A stretch of 64,000 nucleotides of DNA from Terriglobia bacterium (GTDB lineage Bacteria > Acidobacteriota > Terriglobia > Terriglobales > Acidobacteriaceae), in contig JAIQFO010000026.1 in NCBI GenBank assembly GCA_020073215.1, positions 1-64,000 on the forward strand, read 5' to 3'. The position numbers and the translations under genes are program-made. Below are positions 4,453 through 11,377 of this stretch, piece after piece. The notes below the pieces were generated by a model. That model did no database searches. It was not told the origin of the DNA and saw only the letters and a list, made by a program, of their open reading frames with translations. How positions within the stretch are numbered: the first letter of the stretch is position 1; every line of letters starts with the position of its first letter.

Positions 4453-6504
4453 ATGAACATTCGGCTCTCCATTCTCATCCTGGTTCTGATTCCGGCCATT
4501 GTCGTAGGCGGATATGCGGTAACCCAACGGCCGATGACCGCACCGGTGGTGGTGGTGCTGGGTGCGGTCATGATTTACCTGGGCTATACCCGTTACGCGC
4601 GGCACATTGATCGCGAAGTCATTCGACCCGACGACAAGAAGTCGACGCCCGCCAAGATGTACATGGACGGAGTCGACTTCATGCCCACCAGCCGCAACAT
4701 TCTCTATGGATATCACTTCAAGTCGATCGCGGCGGCGGGACCGATCGTCGGGCCGATCGCGGCGGCCACCCTGTGGGGTTGGATGCCCGCATTGCTATGG
4801 CTCACCCTGGGCGTCACGTTCCTGGGCTGGGCCAGCGACTACTCCGCCATCATGGTCGCGGTCCGGAACGACGGCAATTCGCTTTCGGCCATTGCTCACC
4901 GGCTGATATCCCCGCGGGCGCGGGTCATCCTCTTTGTATTTATCTTTTTCTATCTGTTGCTGCTGGCCGGCGCTTTTGTGGGCATCATGGCGGGCATCTT
5001 CGATCCTCGCGCGGACGTGCCCTTCGGCATCTTCATGCTGGCCATCATGGGCCTGCTGATGGGGCAGATGCTCTACCGCTGGAAGATGGACCTGATCCTG
5101 GTAACTTTCGTGGCCGTGGCGGTGACGCTCGGTTCGATGGCCATAGGAGCTAAGGGCATCGTCCCCACAAAAGGCACAACTCCGGATGGCAAGCCCGCCA
5201 TGGCATTGGTGTTCGCCGGCCGGGTCAACTCGGCGGTGGAACGGCTTAGCGATGGAATCAATGGCCTGAGCGGGCGGCAGCCGTTGTACACGGTCGTCGA
5301 TCCTACCCGCTCGGACCCGCGGCTGGTTGTGACGATGGTCAACTCGGACGGCAAGATCGTACCCAAGTACGTGGACCAGAGCGGCGCCATCAGGATGTTG
5401 CCCTCGTTCATCTTTTGGTGCCTGTTTATCTTCGCCTTTTCTTACCTGGGCACCGTGCTGCCCATCTGGCGGTTCGCGCAACCGACCAACTACATCGGTT
5501 TCTGGGTCACTTTCCTGACGATCGGGTTGACCGCCTTGGGCGCAGTACTGGGCGGGATCCGGGCTCTGCTGGGCAATCCGGAGATGATTAGGGCGGTGAC
5601 CTTCCAGACCAAGGCTTTCGCTTCGTGGATGCCCATCACCCAAGCCAAGGACGCTGCCGGCAACCTTCTGCAGGCCCACCCCGCGATTCAACCTTTGTGG
5701 CCGATGCTGTTTGTGACCATCGCCTGCGGCGCCATCTCGGGCTGGCATTCGCTGGTCGGATCGATCGGGACGGCGCGCCAACTGGAGTATGAGACCGACG
5801 GGTTGCCGGTGGGTGGCGGCGGCATGTTCTCGGAAAATGCGCTGGCTCTGCTCTCCCTGATTGCGGTGTCGATCGCGGGCGGCGTCGGAGCGGGAGCCTT
5901 CGCAGCCGGAGTGGGCAAACTGCTGGGCATTATCACTTTCGGTGGGATCCCTCCGGCCTACGGCACAGCCCTGGGCTTCGGGGTATTCGTGGTCATCGTG
6001 CTGACGATGGTGCAGCTTGTGTTTCGGGTCATGCGCGTGACTTTGGGCGAGTGGCTGGGCGACACCTGGGTGGGTTTCAAGAACCCGCACATCTCGGCCA
6101 TTCTCTCCATGGTCTTGACCATGCTCCTGGTGTTGAGTGGAACCTGGATTTACCTCTGGCAATTATTCGGAGCGTCGAACCAGTTGATGGCCGCACTGAG
6201 CCTGCTCATCGTCAGCATCTGGCTGAAGTCGATCGGCCGCAACCCGCGCTATGCATTCTGGCCCATGCTGTTCATGTATGTGACCACAATGGCAGCGATC
6301 ATAGTGACGGCCTATAACTTGTACGCCAGCATCTTGTCGAATCCGAAAATTGCCGCGCAGCCCATCAACAGCATTGGCGCTATCGCCATGATCCTGGTGT
6401 CGGTGCTCTTGTTCATCGCGGCGTTGATCATCGCTTACGACGCCTGGCACGCATGGCAGAAGCCGCTGCCCGCCGGCAAGGTTGCGCCTATGCCGGCGGA
6501 TTAG
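4453..6504 (+). CDS. cstA: Carbon starvation protein A, peptide/pyruvate transporter family
   Basis: 683 aa, close to the usual CstA length, with about 16 hydrophobic segments across the inner membrane. Recognisable CstA sequence includes FMPTSRNILYGYHFKSIAAA, GPIVGPIAA, WASDYSAIMVAVRNDG, GAISGWHSLVGSIGTARQ and GEWLGDTW. CstA proteins import peptides, and some paralogues import pyruvate. The start at 4453 has AAGGAG seven bases upstream; the open frame extends to 4270 without support. Residues about 240-310 form a variable soluble loop. Confidence 0.92.
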   Translation: MNIRLSILILVLIPAIVVGGYAVTQRPMTAPVVVVLGAVMIYLGYTRYARHIDREVIRPDDKKSTPAKMYMDGVDFMPTSRNILYGYHFKSIAAAGPIVGPIAAATLWGWMPALLWLTLGVTFLGWASDYSAIMVAVRNDGNSLSAIAHRLISPRARVILFVFIFFYLLLLAGAFVGIMAGIFDPRADVPFGIFMLAIMGLLMGQMLYRWKMDLILVTFVAVAVTLGSMAIGAKGIVPTKGTTPDGKPAMALVFAGRVNSAVERLSDGINGLSGRQPLYTVVDPTRSDPRLVVTMVNSDGKIVPKYVDQSGAIRMLPSFIFWCLFIFAFSYLGTVLPIWRFAQPTNYIGFWVTFLTIGLTALGAVLGGIRALLGNPEMIRAVTFQTKAFASWMPITQAKDAAGNLLQAHPAIQPLWPMLFVTIACGAISGWHSLVGSIGTARQLEYETDGLPVGGGGMFSENALALLSLIAVSIAGGVGAGAFAAGVGKLLGIITFGGIPPAYGTALGFGVFVVIVLTMVQLVFRVMRVTLGEWLGDTWVGFKNPHISAILSMVLTMLLVLSGTWIYLWQLFGASNQLMAALSLLIVSIWLKSIGRNPRYAFWPMLFMYVTTMAAIIVTAYNLYASILSNPKIAAQPINSIGAIAMILVSVLLFIAALIIAYDAWHAWQKPLPAGKVAPMPAD

Positions 6505-6546: not shown

Positions 6547-7173
6547 CTAAGAACCCTCAGTGATGCGCAGCAAGGTTTCAAAGACGGCGCGGGCTGAATG
6601 TGTGCGGAGCGGATCGAAGCGCCACTGCACCTCGAGATTCGGCTCGGTGCGCCGGACGAGCAGGCGCTGCAGGGGACAGCCGTCGAGTGCGGCCCTGGAC
6701 AGCAGTTTCGAAGCGGCGGGCAGGTTGCCGGGCGCATAGGCGATTAGAGGCGGTGCTGCGGAGAGCGGTGTCCAATAGTTTTTGGCTCGATCCGTGAGTT
6801 CCTGCGGCGGCCAGGAAGCGGGGTCCAGCGCCTCCAGTTCGACCTCCGGTTGGGTACGCAGGGCGGCTCGAAAAATAAACAGGTCGCGCCGGCCGCGGAG
6901 GTGAGCCAGGCCCCAGAGCGGCGCTACATCGCGTGGTTCGAGCACGACCAGAACTTCGGCATGGCGGAAAGGCGGCTTGGCCTGCTGGATCTTCAATTCG
7001 AGGACCGAAGATCCCAGCCAGCGCAGGGTGGTCTTTTCGCCCACCAGGGGCAGTCCTTCCTGGAGCCAGCGCAGGGCGGCATGGCCCTTACGGACGTTGT
7101 AGTGGGTGCCGACGGCGAACCAGCCTACAATGAAGATGACGACGAGGATGAAGGCGGCAAGACCTGGTGACAT
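6547..7173 (-). CDS. Hypothetical protein with one N-terminal membrane helix
   Basis: 208 aa. Residues 5-22 (AAFILVVIFIVGWFAVGTHY) form a single membrane anchor, followed by a soluble domain rich in Leu, Arg and Pro with no motif I recognise. The frame continues open far upstream over the next genes, but ATG 7173 is the sensible start because the hydrophobic N-terminus begins there. It ends 42 bp after the convergent cstA stop. Confidence 0.65.
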   Translation of the reverse strand: MSPGLAAFILVVIFIVGWFAVGTHYNVRKGHAALRWLQEGLPLVGEKTTLRWLGSSVLELKIQQAKPPFRHAEVLVVLEPRDVAPLWGLAHLRGRRDLFIFRAALRTQPEVELEALDPASWPPQELTDRAKNYWTPLSAAPPLIAYAPGNLPAASKLLSRAALDGCPLQRLLVRRTEPNLEVQWRFDPLRTHSARAVFETLLRITEGS

Positions 7174-7605: not shown

Positions 7606-7881
7606 ATGGCGGACGAACCCAAAGAGGACAAGCAGGGATTCCTTAGCCGAATCAAAGAAATTGCCTATGGCATGAGTGCCCACGACATGTCTCGTTATGC
7701 CATGCGCACGCGAGCCAGCATGGAACACCTTTTCATCCTCATCACCATGGGCGATCTGATTGGCGTCCCCATCTTGCCGCCCTATTACTCGCTGCGGCTG
7801 TTGCCCTATGTGGTGCCCAACATCGCTACCTGGAAGCGCCGCATGTTGCGTGAGAAGGACGTATCGGACGCGATGTTCTAA
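7606..7881 (+). CDS. Small conserved protein, second of the tandem pair
   Basis: 91 aa. It shares with the preceding gene the frame GD(M/L)xGVPI(M/L)PPxYSLRxLP, then VPxIxxWKRRxxRE(R/K)D. The N-terminus (MADEPKEDKQGFLSRIKEIA) is charged and probably helical. AGGAG lies upstream of the ATG. It is separated by 45 bp from its paralogue and 54 bp from the first ATPase, which supports one operon. Function unknown; two non-identical copies alongside two non-identical ATPases suggests paired subunits. Confidence 0.75.
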   Translation: MADEPKEDKQGFLSRIKEIAYGMSAHDMSRYAMRTRASMEHLFILITMGDLIGVPILPPYYSLRLLPYVVPNIATWKRRMLREKDVSDAMF

Positions 7882-7935: not shown

Positions 7936-8919
7936 ATGTCGCTGAAAGATACTTTCGAACAGAACAAGCAGAGGCGTTACATCATGTTCGGCGGCAAGGG
8001 CGGGCTGGGGAAGACTACCTTCTCCGCTGCCACCGCCTTCTGGCTGGCGCAGCAGGGACACAAAGTCCTGGTCTTCTCCGTGGACCCACAGGCTTCGCTC
8101 AGCGACATCTTTCAGAAGGACATTTTTGGCAAGGGCCCGGTGAAGATCATGGACAACCTCTGGGCCCAGGAAATTGACGCCGACAGCCACATCCGGGCGT
8201 ACCAGGACCAGATCCGCAAAAAGATTCTCGACATGTACGGGCTGGAGGCGGTGCCGGAGGAGGTCGAACAGTACATCCAGGCAGCCTCGGCCGAGCCAGC
8301 CATGGAAGAGTCAGCCATCTTCGACGCAGTGGTGGATATCGTCGTAGGCGGCGAATACGACTATTACATCTACGATCTGGTTCCGCTGGGGCACGCGCTT
8401 TATTACCTCTCGATGGCCAAGGTTTATGACGAGTGGATCAATCGCATTACCAAGCTGCGGGAAGAGATGCGTGAGCACGAGGAGATGGTGGCGCGCATCA
8501 AGCGCCAGAAGACCACGGAAGAAGACCACATTCTTACCGAACTGCTGTACATCAAGAACCGCATTAACCAGTCTTCCAGCATCCTGACCGACCGCGAAAA
8601 AACCGCGTTCTTCTTTGTGGTTGTGCCCGAGGAGATGATCATCCTCGACACGGCCAAGGCGGCCCAACTGTTTGCCAAGTTCGATGTGCCCATTGCCGGC
8701 TACGTGGTCAACCGGGTACTCCCGCCGGACTTGGAGGGAAAAGACATTCCGCCCTACCTTCGCAATCGCATCAAGATGCAGGGGAACTATCTCACCGAGA
8801 TTGACAAAACCTTCGGCAACCAGGTTGTCGCTCGGGTACTCGAGTTGGAGCGGGACATCACAGGGCTGCCGATGATTGAGAAACTGGCCGGGATGATGTA
8901 CGGCAATGGGAGGCAGTGA
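7936..8919 (+). CDS. Get3/ArsA-like ATPase, subunit 1 (degenerate switch II)
   Basis: 327 aa, SIMIBI-class P-loop NTPase. The deviant Walker A is GGKGGLGKTT (residues 19-28) with the signature Lys21. Switch I is SVDPQASLSDIF and keeps the catalytic-type Asp50. The switch II motif, DTAPTGH in Get3 and ArsA, reads YDLVPLGHALYYL: Asp147 remains but Thr-Ala is lost. A conserved EPAMEESAIF segment and a Lys/Glu-rich helical insert follow. It overlaps the ribosome site of the next ATPase gene. Family members energise arsenite efflux or chaperone tail-anchored proteins; no ArsB, ArsR or ArsC is nearby, so arsenic resistance is unlikely. Confidence 0.85.
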   Translation: MSLKDTFEQNKQRRYIMFGGKGGLGKTTFSAATAFWLAQQGHKVLVFSVDPQASLSDIFQKDIFGKGPVKIMDNLWAQEIDADSHIRAYQDQIRKKILDMYGLEAVPEEVEQYIQAASAEPAMEESAIFDAVVDIVVGGEYDYYIYDLVPLGHALYYLSMAKVYDEWINRITKLREEMREHEEMVARIKRQKTTEEDHILTELLYIKNRINQSSSILTDREKTAFFFVVVPEEMIILDTAKAAQLFAKFDVPIAGYVVNRVLPPDLEGKDIPPYLRNRIKMQGNYLTEIDKTFGNQVVARVLELERDITGLPMIEKLAGMMYGNGRQ

Positions 8920-8920
8920 G

Positions 8921-9922
8921 ATGTCAGAGATCAAACAGTCTTTGACTGATTTTGTGGTGGCGCACCCCAAGCTCAAGTTCATGTTTTTTGGGGGCAAGGG
9001 CGGTGTCGGCAAGACGGTGATGGCAGGCGTCACCGCCATGCAAATGGCGCAGCAGGGTCGGCGCACTATTCTGGCGTCCACAAATCCGGTTCACAGCCTG
9101 AGCGGCCTGCTCGACCAGAACGTCTACGGGCAGGCGACGCCAGTCAAAGATGTGCCCAATCTCTGGGCTTATGAAATTGACACCAAAGAGACGATCGAAC
9201 GCTCCAAGCAGGACATCAAGACGAAAATTCGCTGGTTCCTGAAGTTCGCCGAGATCTCCACCCAGGCGGACGCGTTCGTGGAGAGCGCCACCATGAACCC
9301 GGCCTTCGAAGAGTCGGCGATGTTCGAGAACATGGTGGACCTGATGTTCAAGAACGAATACGACGTCTACGTCTTCGACACCGCGCCCACCGCCAATGCC
9401 CGGCGCCTCTTAGGCATGAGCAAGGTCTACTCCATGTGGGTGAACAAAATGGTGAAGTCGCGGGAGGAAGCGCAGTCGCTGCGTGACCTGTTCTCCTTCA
9501 CCAAGAAGAAGGAAGCGGACCCCCTGATGGAGTATCTGCTGTCATTCCGCGAGCGCATCAGCCACGCCCGCGAGTTACTGACCGACGTCGAGCAGACAGC
9601 GTTTTTTTTCGTGACGCTGCCCGAGGCACTGCCCATCGCGGTCATTAAGCGCTTCATCAACTGGTTCCACGATTTTGGAATTCCGGTGGGTGGTGTGGTG
9701 GTCAATATGGTGATCCAGAAGGATCAACTGCGCCCCGACTCGCCCGAGTTCGTCAAGAACCGGGTCGCGATGCAGGATGCTTACATGGAGGAGATTTGGC
9801 GTGATTTCGACAATGTGCGCGCCGTGCTGCCGCTATTCGATAACGAGGTGCGCGGCACTGAGGCCCTGAAAATGATGGCCCAGCACGCCTTCCCGCAGGT
9901 GGGGACTCCCGCCGGCGGGTAG
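8921..9922 (+). CDS. Get3/ArsA-like ATPase, subunit 2 (switch I Asp replaced by Asn)
   Basis: 333 aa. Walker A is GGKGGVGKTV (residues 24-33). Switch I reads ASTNPVHSLSG, so the catalytic Asp of the family motif (DPAHSL) is Asn55, codon AAT. Switch II is intact: FDTAPTANARRLL (Asp153). The MNPAFEESAMF segment matches EPAMEESAIF in subunit 1. The start at 8921 follows GGGAGG and lies one base after the upstream stop, so translation is likely coupled. Compared with subunit 1 it lost the opposite active-site element, consistent with a heterodimer. Confidence 0.85.
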   Translation: MSEIKQSLTDFVVAHPKLKFMFFGGKGGVGKTVMAGVTAMQMAQQGRRTILASTNPVHSLSGLLDQNVYGQATPVKDVPNLWAYEIDTKETIERSKQDIKTKIRWFLKFAEISTQADAFVESATMNPAFEESAMFENMVDLMFKNEYDVYVFDTAPTANARRLLGMSKVYSMWVNKMVKSREEAQSLRDLFSFTKKKEADPLMEYLLSFRERISHARELLTDVEQTAFFFVTLPEALPIAVIKRFINWFHDFGIPVGGVVVNMVIQKDQLRPDSPEFVKNRVAMQDAYMEEIWRDFDNVRAVLPLFDNEVRGTEALKMMAQHAFPQVGTPAGG

Positions 9923-10000: not shown

Positions 10001-10048
10001 GAAACCCAGTCTTTATTGAAACCCAGTCTTTATCGAAACCCAGTCTTA
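10001..10048 (+). repeat. Tandem 17-bp repeat, 2.8 copies
   Basis: The unit GAAACCCAGTCTTTAT(T/C) is repeated at 10001-10017, 10018-10034 and partly at 10035-10048. The last copy runs into the stop codon of the convergent GTPase gene. It occupies the gap between two convergent genes and looks like recent slippage amplification. Confidence 0.8.
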
Positions 10049-11377
10049 GTGTTTCGCCTCCGCCGGCGCTTCAACCTGCGCGAGGATTTCCGCCAGCCCC
10101 GGATGAGTGAGTTCTTCCACCTCGTAAGTAACCCGCAAGCTGGGTTTGTTGAGCTTGATGACGCGCGCCAGATCAATCGGCGTGGCGATCAGAACCAGGT
10201 CGCAGGGCACGCGGTTGATGGTCTCTTCCAGTTCATGCCGTTGCATCACGCTGTAACCCATGGCGGGAAGAAGATGTTCGAGGTGCGGGTAGCGTTCAAA
10301 CGTGCCGCGAATGGACCCGACCGCAAACGGCTTGGGGCCCACCAACTCGGCCGCTCCCCAATTGCGCGCCGCGACGACTCCGGCGCCATAGGGCATTTCG
10401 CCGTGGGTCAGGGTGGGGCCGTCTTCGACGACCAACACGCGCTTTCCCTTCACCAGTTCCGGCGTAGGCGCGGAGACCCGGCAAGCGGTCTCAACAATTT
10501 TTGCCTTGGGATTACTTGCCTGGATGTTGCGCCGGACCGTCTCGATGTCCTGCCGCGTCGCCGTATCGACCTTGTTGATGACCACCACGTCGGCGCGTCT
10601 CAGGTTGACCTCTCCCGGGAAATACGACAGTTCGTGTCCGGGGCGCAGCGGGTCGGCCACCACGAGTTCCAGATCGGACTTGTAAAACGGAGTATCGTTA
10701 TTGCCTCCATCCCAGAGAATGATGTCGGCTTCCTTCTCGGCCTGGCGCAAAATTCTCTCGTAGTCCACGCCGGCATAGACGACGGTTCCCTGACGGATGT
10801 GTGGTTCGTACTCCTCGCGCTCTTCGATGGTGCATTGCTGCAAATCGAGATCGTCGATGGTGGCAAAGCGCTGCACCGCCTGTGCGACCAGGTCGCCGTA
10901 GGGCATGGGATGACGGATGACGACGGGTTTCCAGCCTTGGCGGCGCAGCTCGGAAGCCACCCGTCTCGACAGCGGACTCTTGCCGCAGCCGGTCCGCACC
11001 GCGCAAACCGAAACCACCGGGACTGTCGATTTGATTTGCGTACGCTCGGTCCCCAATAGCCAAAAGTCCGCGCCGGCAGCCACCACGCGCGATGCGAGGT
11101 GCATCAGGTTCTGGTGGGAGATATCGCTGTAGGCGAACACCACCGCCTCGACGCGCTCGTCGCGAATTAGTTTTTCCAGATCCTTCTCTTCAAAGATGGG
11201 GATTCCCACGGGATACTGCGAACTGCCGGCGAGTTCCGGCGGGTAGCGGCGGCCGGCAATATCGGGGATTTGGGTGGCGGTGAAGGCAACGACTTGGTAA
11301 TCAGGATTATTGCGAAAAATGACGTTGAAATTATGAAAGTCCCTGCCCGCCGCACCTAAGATGAGAATCCTCTTCAT
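10046..11377 (-). CDS. Cyclic 2,3-diphosphoglycerate synthetase-like GTPase (COG2403)
   Basis: 443 aa. A Rossmann-like N-domain (KRILILGAAGRDFHNFN) precedes a P-loop domain with AVRTGCGKSPLSRRVA (Walker A), DGGNNDTPF, VVINKVDTA (G4, NKxD) and VEDGPTLTHGEMPYGAG. This layout matches COG2403, which includes methanogen cyclic 2,3-diphosphoglycerate synthetase and bacterial proteins of unproven function. A bacterial member near Get3-like ATPases might be a GTPase chaperone instead. It converges on the ATPase operon. Confidence 0.8.
   Translation of the reverse strand: MKRILILGAAGRDFHNFNVIFRNNPDYQVVAFTATQIPDIAGRRYPPELAGSSQYPVGIPIFEEKDLEKLIRDERVEAVVFAYSDISHQNLMHLASRVVAAGADFWLLGTERTQIKSTVPVVSVCAVRTGCGKSPLSRRVASELRRQGWKPVVIRHPMPYGDLVAQAVQRFATIDDLDLQQCTIEEREEYEPHIRQGTVVYAGVDYERILRQAEKEADIILWDGGNNDTPFYKSDLELVVADPLRPGHELSYFPGEVNLRRADVVVINKVDTATRQDIETVRRNIQASNPKAKIVETACRVSAPTPELVKGKRVLVVEDGPTLTHGEMPYGAGVVAARNWGAAELVGPKPFAVGSIRGTFERYPHLEHLLPAMGYSVMQRHELEETINRVPCDLVLIATPIDLARVIKLNKPSLRVTYEVEELTHPGLAEILAQVEAPAEAKH

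Follow-up and report, generated by a model that had tools for sequence, protein, structure and literature searches.

In a 64,000-nucleotide stretch of a Terriglobia bacterium genome (positions 1 to 64,000 of contig JAIQFO010000026.1, assembly GCA_020073215.1; hereafter, the window), two adjacent genes encode ATPases of the Get3/ArsA family, referred to here as A and B, which display an old, fixed and strictly kept asymmetry in their nucleotide-site motifs. The switch I Asp is present in every readable A protein of the family and is replaced by Asn in every readable B protein, and each subunit carries its own alteration of switch II. The genes form part of a module that also comprises a CstA transporter, a CstY-like protein and two CstX-like small proteins. 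We propose that A and B constitute a heterodimeric ArsA/Get3-type ATPase acting on the neighbouring CstA via the two CstX-like proteins, a proposal to which we assign an even chance and in which dimerisation, the hydrolysing site and the coupling to CstA are what we infer. The genes and motifs of the pair are:

7936..8919, plus strand: ATPase A, Get3/ArsA family, 327 amino acids (aa), likely the hydrolysing subunit (PF02374, E=4.4e-73; TIGR00345, E=6.5e-69)
7990..8016, plus strand: deviant P-loop of A, GGKGGLGKT (Lys21, Lys26)
8077..8100, plus strand: switch I of A, SVDPQASL, catalytic Asp50 present
8374..8394, plus strand: switch II of A, DLVPLGH, where DTAPTGH is usual
8921..9922, plus strand: ATPase B, Get3/ArsA family, likely the ATP-trapping subunit (PF02374, E=2.7e-68; TIGR00345, E=1.2e-65)
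8990..9016, plus strand: deviant P-loop of B, GGKGGVGKT
9077..9100, plus strand: switch I of B, STNPVHSL, Asn55 at the catalytic Asp position
9377..9397, plus strand: switch II of B, DTAPTAN, Ala-Asn for Gly-His

Residues of B are counted from the possible start codon at 8921; a second option, at 8906, overlaps A. Neither protein of the window contains Cys. In HMMER alignments to the archaeal Get3 structures 3ug6 and 3zq6, the Asn of B is aligned with their switch I Asp, and DLVPLGH of A with their DTAPTGH. By sequence equivalence, the natural Asn of B corresponds to D57N in yeast Get3, a variant that binds ATP without hydrolysing it and serves to trap the ATP-bound state (PMC12506534, accessible part); human TRC40 with the matching change is termed presumably ATPase-deficient in the accessible text of PMC6633398. 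The first-pass annotation of this DNA had recorded the Asp and the deviant switch II of A, the Asn of B, the abolished hydrolysis of Get3 D57N and the signature Lys of both subunits. These readings stand, both in the open reading frames (ORFs) and structure-guided alignment of the window proteins and family-wide. For switch II of B it had recorded FDTAPT, which is right, and had missed the replacement of the Gly-His that should follow. To speak of a complementary loss of motifs, as it did, is too strong: B bears both lesions, and A keeps the Asp and the D..P.GH frame. The two unequal nucleotide sites that it foresaw would follow if A and B dimerise.

The motif tally covers loci L007 to L252. 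Counting those of the window, it comprises 139 distinct A proteins and 141 distinct B proteins; the bins of origin bear the labels of seven phyla or more, and such labels may be wrong. Relatives were gathered by one scan of named genomes (best 80 of 314 loci) and from phylum samples, whose matches were read only where loci were given. The seeds behind the best 80 of 314 loci (YDYYIYD and RRYIMFGG) lie outside or stop short of the tested positions, except for the first D of switch II. Asp occupies the switch I position in 135/135 readable A proteins and Asn in 138/138 readable B proteins, fragments lacking the stretch (four of A, three of B) being left uncounted. Switch II of A reads D(LV/MP)P(L/F)GH in 139/139 (LVPLGH in 133, MPPFGH in 6), and that of B DTA(P/A)(T/V)AN in 140/141 (TAPTAN in 134, TAAVAN in 6), the last one being cut off and uncounted. 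The family divides into clades I and II, and in clade II switch II of B is FDTAAVAN by alignment as well as by pattern. Both P-loop lysines are present in all readable proteins (135/135 for A, 137/137 for B). As no readable relative departs from these states, we do not regard them as the product of chance. A further 35 ATPase segments, neither clear A nor clear B and each alone in its locus, were excluded; 30 have the switch I Asp, and 5 were unreadable by the pattern.

Pairs with both motifs intact, which the first-pass annotation had named as the case that would speak against it, were absent from the A/B family in loci from seven phylum samples. The one intact pair encountered, the split ArsA-like pair of L322, carries TTDPAS or STDPAS and DTAPTGH and lies outside that family; two adjacent ATPases alone therefore do not entail motif changes. 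As to frequency, each sample includes its centre genome, and the centres other than that of the window's phylum were chosen for having the pair. It was found in 12/297 genomes of the window's phylum (matches of at least 73% identity, one of them a fragment), in 34/251 of the phylum to which a genome labelled Chloroflexi belongs (35 matches, G723 being discounted), and in 19/198 under the Deltaproteobacteria label. For Rokuibacteriota the count was 24/95, one being the B piece of L243; for Armatimonadetes, 4/43; for Gemmatimonadetes, 1/200, namely the centre alone; and for Actinobacteria, 5/296, one a fragment. The two latter samples, taken later, added no complete pair to the tally: G301, G298, G338, G483 and G507, the five that were complete, had already been counted, and G363 gave a fragment. 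Lone Get3/ArsA-like ATPases of the Gemmatimonadetes-labelled sample (L288-L306) keep STDPAHS in switch I, and their switch II is TAPTGQ in 10 loci and TAPLGH in 6; among loci L288-L325 the motif pattern gave no reading in L311, L319, L320 and L323.

A is probably the hydrolysing subunit, and B would be the ATP-holding one, because A keeps Asp and Gly-His and B carries the D57N-type change. Some other relatives with the switch I Asp also have an altered switch II, with Leu at the fifth place of DTAPTGH, as in A (6 loci), or even Gln for His (10 loci). Since the Asp and the D..P.GH frame are kept, and since the Thr-to-Leu change also occurs in these other relatives, loss of activity in A is without support. 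This bears on a different reading, which we consider quite unlikely, according to which neither site hydrolyses ATP, or does so only very slowly, and the pair acts on CstA as an ATP-sensing clamp or inhibitor, signalling the energy state. Both subunits do depart from DTAPTGH in every readable member, and CstA is part of carbon starvation physiology; drift in a dead site, however, would hardly have preserved the catalytic Asp throughout A, and the kept frame and the fifth-place Leu of Asp-bearing relatives likewise weigh against this reading.

A and B occur together in 186 loci, some of them overlapping, and only one of them is seen in 8. Seven of these eight end, with the contig or the stretch, at the place expected for the partner; in the eighth, L241, a B gene minus its first 74 residues is present and A is not, with about 1.5 kb of upstream sequence available. 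The C-terminal third of B also stands alone inside a 121-kb contig in L243. Decay or misassembly is the likely origin of L241 and L243, and the pairing data support A and B as a fixed pair. Get3 proteins being homodimers, A and B might instead form separate homodimers, B as a non-hydrolysing paralogue with another task, and the partial B genes without A would be in keeping with this. We consider it improbable, given that joint occurrence is the rule and that ends explain seven of the eight exceptions; moreover, opposite motif states have been fixed in step, and the trans-acting Lys is kept in both subunits.

A phylogeny built from 68 proteins places all A sequences, those of clade I together with those of clade II, on one branch (support 100/99) and the B sequences on another (100/98); the two are joined as sister clades (100/97) versus 28 other relatives, all of which carry the switch I Asp and read D(T/S)AP(T/S)GH in switch II. 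Eight of the 18 non-family loci (L020, L026, L027, L030-L033 and L036) are outside the tree, having been dropped by the pattern or duplicate filter. Because A and B are each monophyletic and are joined, the asymmetry would, with a root outside A+B, be older than the separation of clades I and II. The simplest account would be that a gene was duplicated once and that A and B had each fixed their changes by the time the two clades parted.

Both proteins match PF02374 far above its cut-off (246.6 bits for A and 230.9 for B versus 24.3), which places them in the Get3/TRC40/ArsA superfamily, and TIGR00345 as well (232.7 and 222 bits versus 135). An AlphaFold model of A was obtained with a mean predicted local distance difference test (pLDDT) value of 79.8 and a predicted template-modelling score (pTM) of 0.78, pLDDT falling below 50 at residues 150-152 in switch II; the model is of a single chain and is silent on dimerisation. 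In full-length structure matching, 3zq6_D was best (Z 29.1, root-mean-square deviation (rmsd) 3.7, 299 residues aligned), and the Get3 D57N complex 9ns5_A (Z 27.6, rmsd 4.9, 296 aligned) and 6bs3_B (Z 23.1, rmsd 4.7, 282 aligned) also matched. A CstX model (pLDDT 66.0, pTM 0.37) was too weak for use.

With archaeal Get3/TRC40 as the nearest solved relatives, and with one membrane segment each in CstX and CstY (PMC2963123, accessible part), the pair could be a bacterial Get3-like targeting system that delivers these one-helix membrane proteins, or CstA, rather than a transport energiser. This is unlikely in our view. The switch I catalytic Asp expected of a Get3 is present in A and not in B. 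The CxxC zinc motif of the Get3 dimer interface occurs in 0/139 A and 0/141 B proteins, although it is missing from some Get3 homologues too (PMC10248533, accessible part). Over the Get3 client-binding region, the best 15-residue hydropathy in clade I is -0.34 for A and -0.63 for B (14 rows each), compared with 0.78 and 0.39 in two archaeal Get3 proteins; clade II A and B are intermediate, at 0.21 and 0.25 (6 rows each). Because CxxC is absent and the clade I client region is polar, tail-anchor targeting is ranked below the energising of CstA by an A/B heterodimer.

Two other assignments were rejected. A fused ArsA, or arsenic resistance, does not fit the single domains of A and B, which score 108.9 and 110.1 bits against TIGR04291 (cut-off 650); the other four PF02374 matches of the window genome, short and weak at 23 to 27 bits, were also counted against arsenic resistance. 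Nor are A and B members of BagA/BagB, whose models give 52.2/40.6 bits for A and 47.5/42.7 for B versus cut-offs of 400/521.

The remaining genes of the module lie upstream of A and B in the window:

4453..6504, plus strand: CstA family transporter (PF02554, E=2.5e-95)
6547..7173, minus strand: CstY-like one-helix protein, 208 aa
7288..7560, plus strand: CstX1-like small protein, 90 aa (NF041419, E=8.4e-9, under cut-off)
7606..7881, plus strand: CstX2-like small protein, 91 aa (NF041419 cory-CC-star, E=1.8e-8, under cut-off)

The two CstX-like proteins are related to each other; since their assignment consists of NF041419 matches under the cut-off, their likeness to the CstX of Castillo & Saier is indirect. 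The name CstY is based on size and position only, and a Pfam and NCBIfam search at 0.01 gave no match for this protein. Of the pair loci, 53 extend 5.5 kb or more upstream; a CstA homologue is found in 47 of them and a CstY-like homologue in 43, and all 53 have at least two CstX-like ORFs (two in 41, three in 12); when loci with at least 2.5 kb upstream are considered, at least two are present in 64/66. Across 251 genomes of the Chloroflexota sample, A/B-profile and CstX matches occurred together in 32, the first only in 3 and the second only in 1. Three of these four exceptions are cut by contig ends, the sequence beginning within A in G704 and G798 and stopping within it in G736; the fourth, G723, has a lone ATPase of another kind, whose neighbours we take to be gas-vesicle-like genes.

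A one-ATPase form of the module offers a comparison. Seventeen loci of the sample labelled Actinobacteria have a CstX-like cory-CC-star protein next to a single ATPase, with one CstX match per genome. STDPA and D(T/S)AP(T/S)GH are both intact in 17/17 of these ATPases (16 distinct proteins), the CstX ends in a CC tail in 17/17, and CstA adjoins in all 9 wider stretches (L180-L186, L190 and L193). These actinobacterial operons (CstA, cory-CC-star (NF041419), ArsA-like) have a transporter, a small partner and a Get3/ArsA-type ATPase in a row, as in the window; they differ in having one ATPase and one CC-tailed CstX, where the window has two ATPases and two CstX without CC. The CC end was found in 0/51 pair-type CstX ORFs checked, versus 17/17 in the one-ATPase form (L119-L135). 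The two forms thus differ in a thiol feature, the Cys-Cys tail of CstX, and the A and B proteins of the window are themselves Cys-free.

That ArsA homologues energise CstA via CstX was proposed by Castillo & Saier in 2010 (PMC2963123, accessible part). Their CstA-linked single-domain ArsA homologues (clusters 14-18) are of about 330 aa and clustered with CstA and CstX, as here, and cluster 15, from Pyrobaculum arsenaticum and Symbiobacterium thermophilum, has two adjacent ATPase genes with CstA and CstX (same source and part). According to the accessible part, N is also the only residue that can stand in for D in the SXD motif of single-domain proteins. That part neither divides D and N between paired partners nor mentions the accompanying alterations of switch II, and the text of PMC2963123 nowhere uses the term heterodimer. 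Among the papers listed in our literature searches, none dealt with D and N assigned to paired partners, and none reported an experiment on ATP-dependent energisation of CstA by ArsA homologues. What is new is the fixed D/N division between partners; the kind of system, a CstA-ArsA-CstX module, was predicted in 2010.

Other systems resemble A/B in part. Mycobacterial BagA/BagB are likewise two different Get3-like ATPases of one operon (PMC10597346, accessible part). The two were solved together in structure 6bs3 ('bacterial Get3-like A and B'). We know of no link of BagA/BagB to CstA. In heterodimeric ATP-binding cassette (ABC) transporters with one degenerate site, one site is catalytic and the other holds ATP; they belong to another protein family and serve as an analogy only. 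In ArsAB arsenite pumps, the two nucleotide-binding halves of ArsA energise a carrier that is also able to use the proton motive force (PMC2963123, accessible part). ArsA is one fused protein with arsenite cysteines, whereas A and B are two genes, Cys-free in the window copies.

Under the proposed mechanism, each subunit would bind one ATP by its own P-loop and lend its signature Lys to the opposite site. The B site, with Asn for Asp and Ala-Asn for Gly-His, would hold its ATP unsplit and keep the dimer together, and hydrolysis at the A site, where the Asp is kept, would open the dimer on one side only. CstX1 and CstX2 would relay the directional movement so produced to CstA, and uptake coupled to ATP would thereby be created or regulated; ArsA acts in this manner on ArsB, and it is this parallel that we draw for A/B on CstA. 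The small proteins have a precedent in E. coli, where pyruvate uptake by CstA requires the small partner YbdD (PMC5847655, accessible part).

Several points weigh against this proposal. No A protein has the usual switch II, and A may therefore be inactive as well; dimerisation of A with B, their ATP binding and their contact with CstA are put forward here as a proposal. CstA proteins can work without such an ATPase, the NCBIfam name for the E. coli type being pyruvate/proton symporter. In the set of 53 pair loci that reach 5.5 kb or more upstream, 6 showed no CstA and 10 no CstY-like gene; two of the 66 with at least 2.5 kb upstream have a single CstX only, and the two loci with part of B and no A, mentioned above, belong here as well. 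The root of the tree is a midpoint root, and most sequences come from metagenome bins.

As to origin, we tentatively suggest, as a possibility that is doubtful as yet, that a CstA-linked homodimeric ATPase was duplicated and that one copy fixed an ATP-trap mutation, giving an obligate asymmetric one-site heterodimer which, with a matching CstX pair, converts a secondary carrier into a system for uptake driven by ATP, across a broad variety of bacteria that have been little studied. If true, the pair would be to the Get3/ArsA family what transporters with a single degenerate ATP site are to theirs, and nature would have provided a test of whether this family can manage with one hydrolysis event per cycle. 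The 2010 idea of ArsA-like ATPases powering CstA would then become directly testable, and the matched rise in ATPases and small partners relative to the one-ATPase actinobacterial form provides a clean comparison. The mutation that biochemists deliberately install in Get3 as an ATP trap is present naturally in B, and the module is spread over several phyla, mostly known from metagenome bins.

The gene adjoining B in the window, on the opposite strand (10046-11377, minus strand), has weak LpxK and CobW matches only; its product presumably resembles cyclic 2,3-diphosphoglycerate synthetase. In 37/80 loci (best 80 of 314), a gene near CstA codes for a protein of some 135 aa. The L089 copy (2039-2533) is weakly thioredoxin-like (E=0.0013), and a similar-sized ORF in L017 (407-883) gave no match. 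In four Chloroflexota-labelled loci, a third CstX-like copy, 52-57% identical to the CstX2 of the window, is located downstream of B:

L079, 7972-8235: third CstX-like copy
L089, 8052-8336: third CstX-like copy
L095, 6649-6918: third CstX-like copy
L112, 7937-8221: third CstX-like copy

Clade II comprises six pairs, and after four of them comes a protein of about 160 aa with a Cys-His end:

L178, 8145-8639: Cys-His-ending protein
L179, 8295-8771: Cys-His-ending protein
L284, 4913-5416: Cys-His-ending protein
L285, 76-555: Cys-His-ending protein

In L178, L179 and L284, a CstY-like gene and a second CstX-like gene come after this protein.
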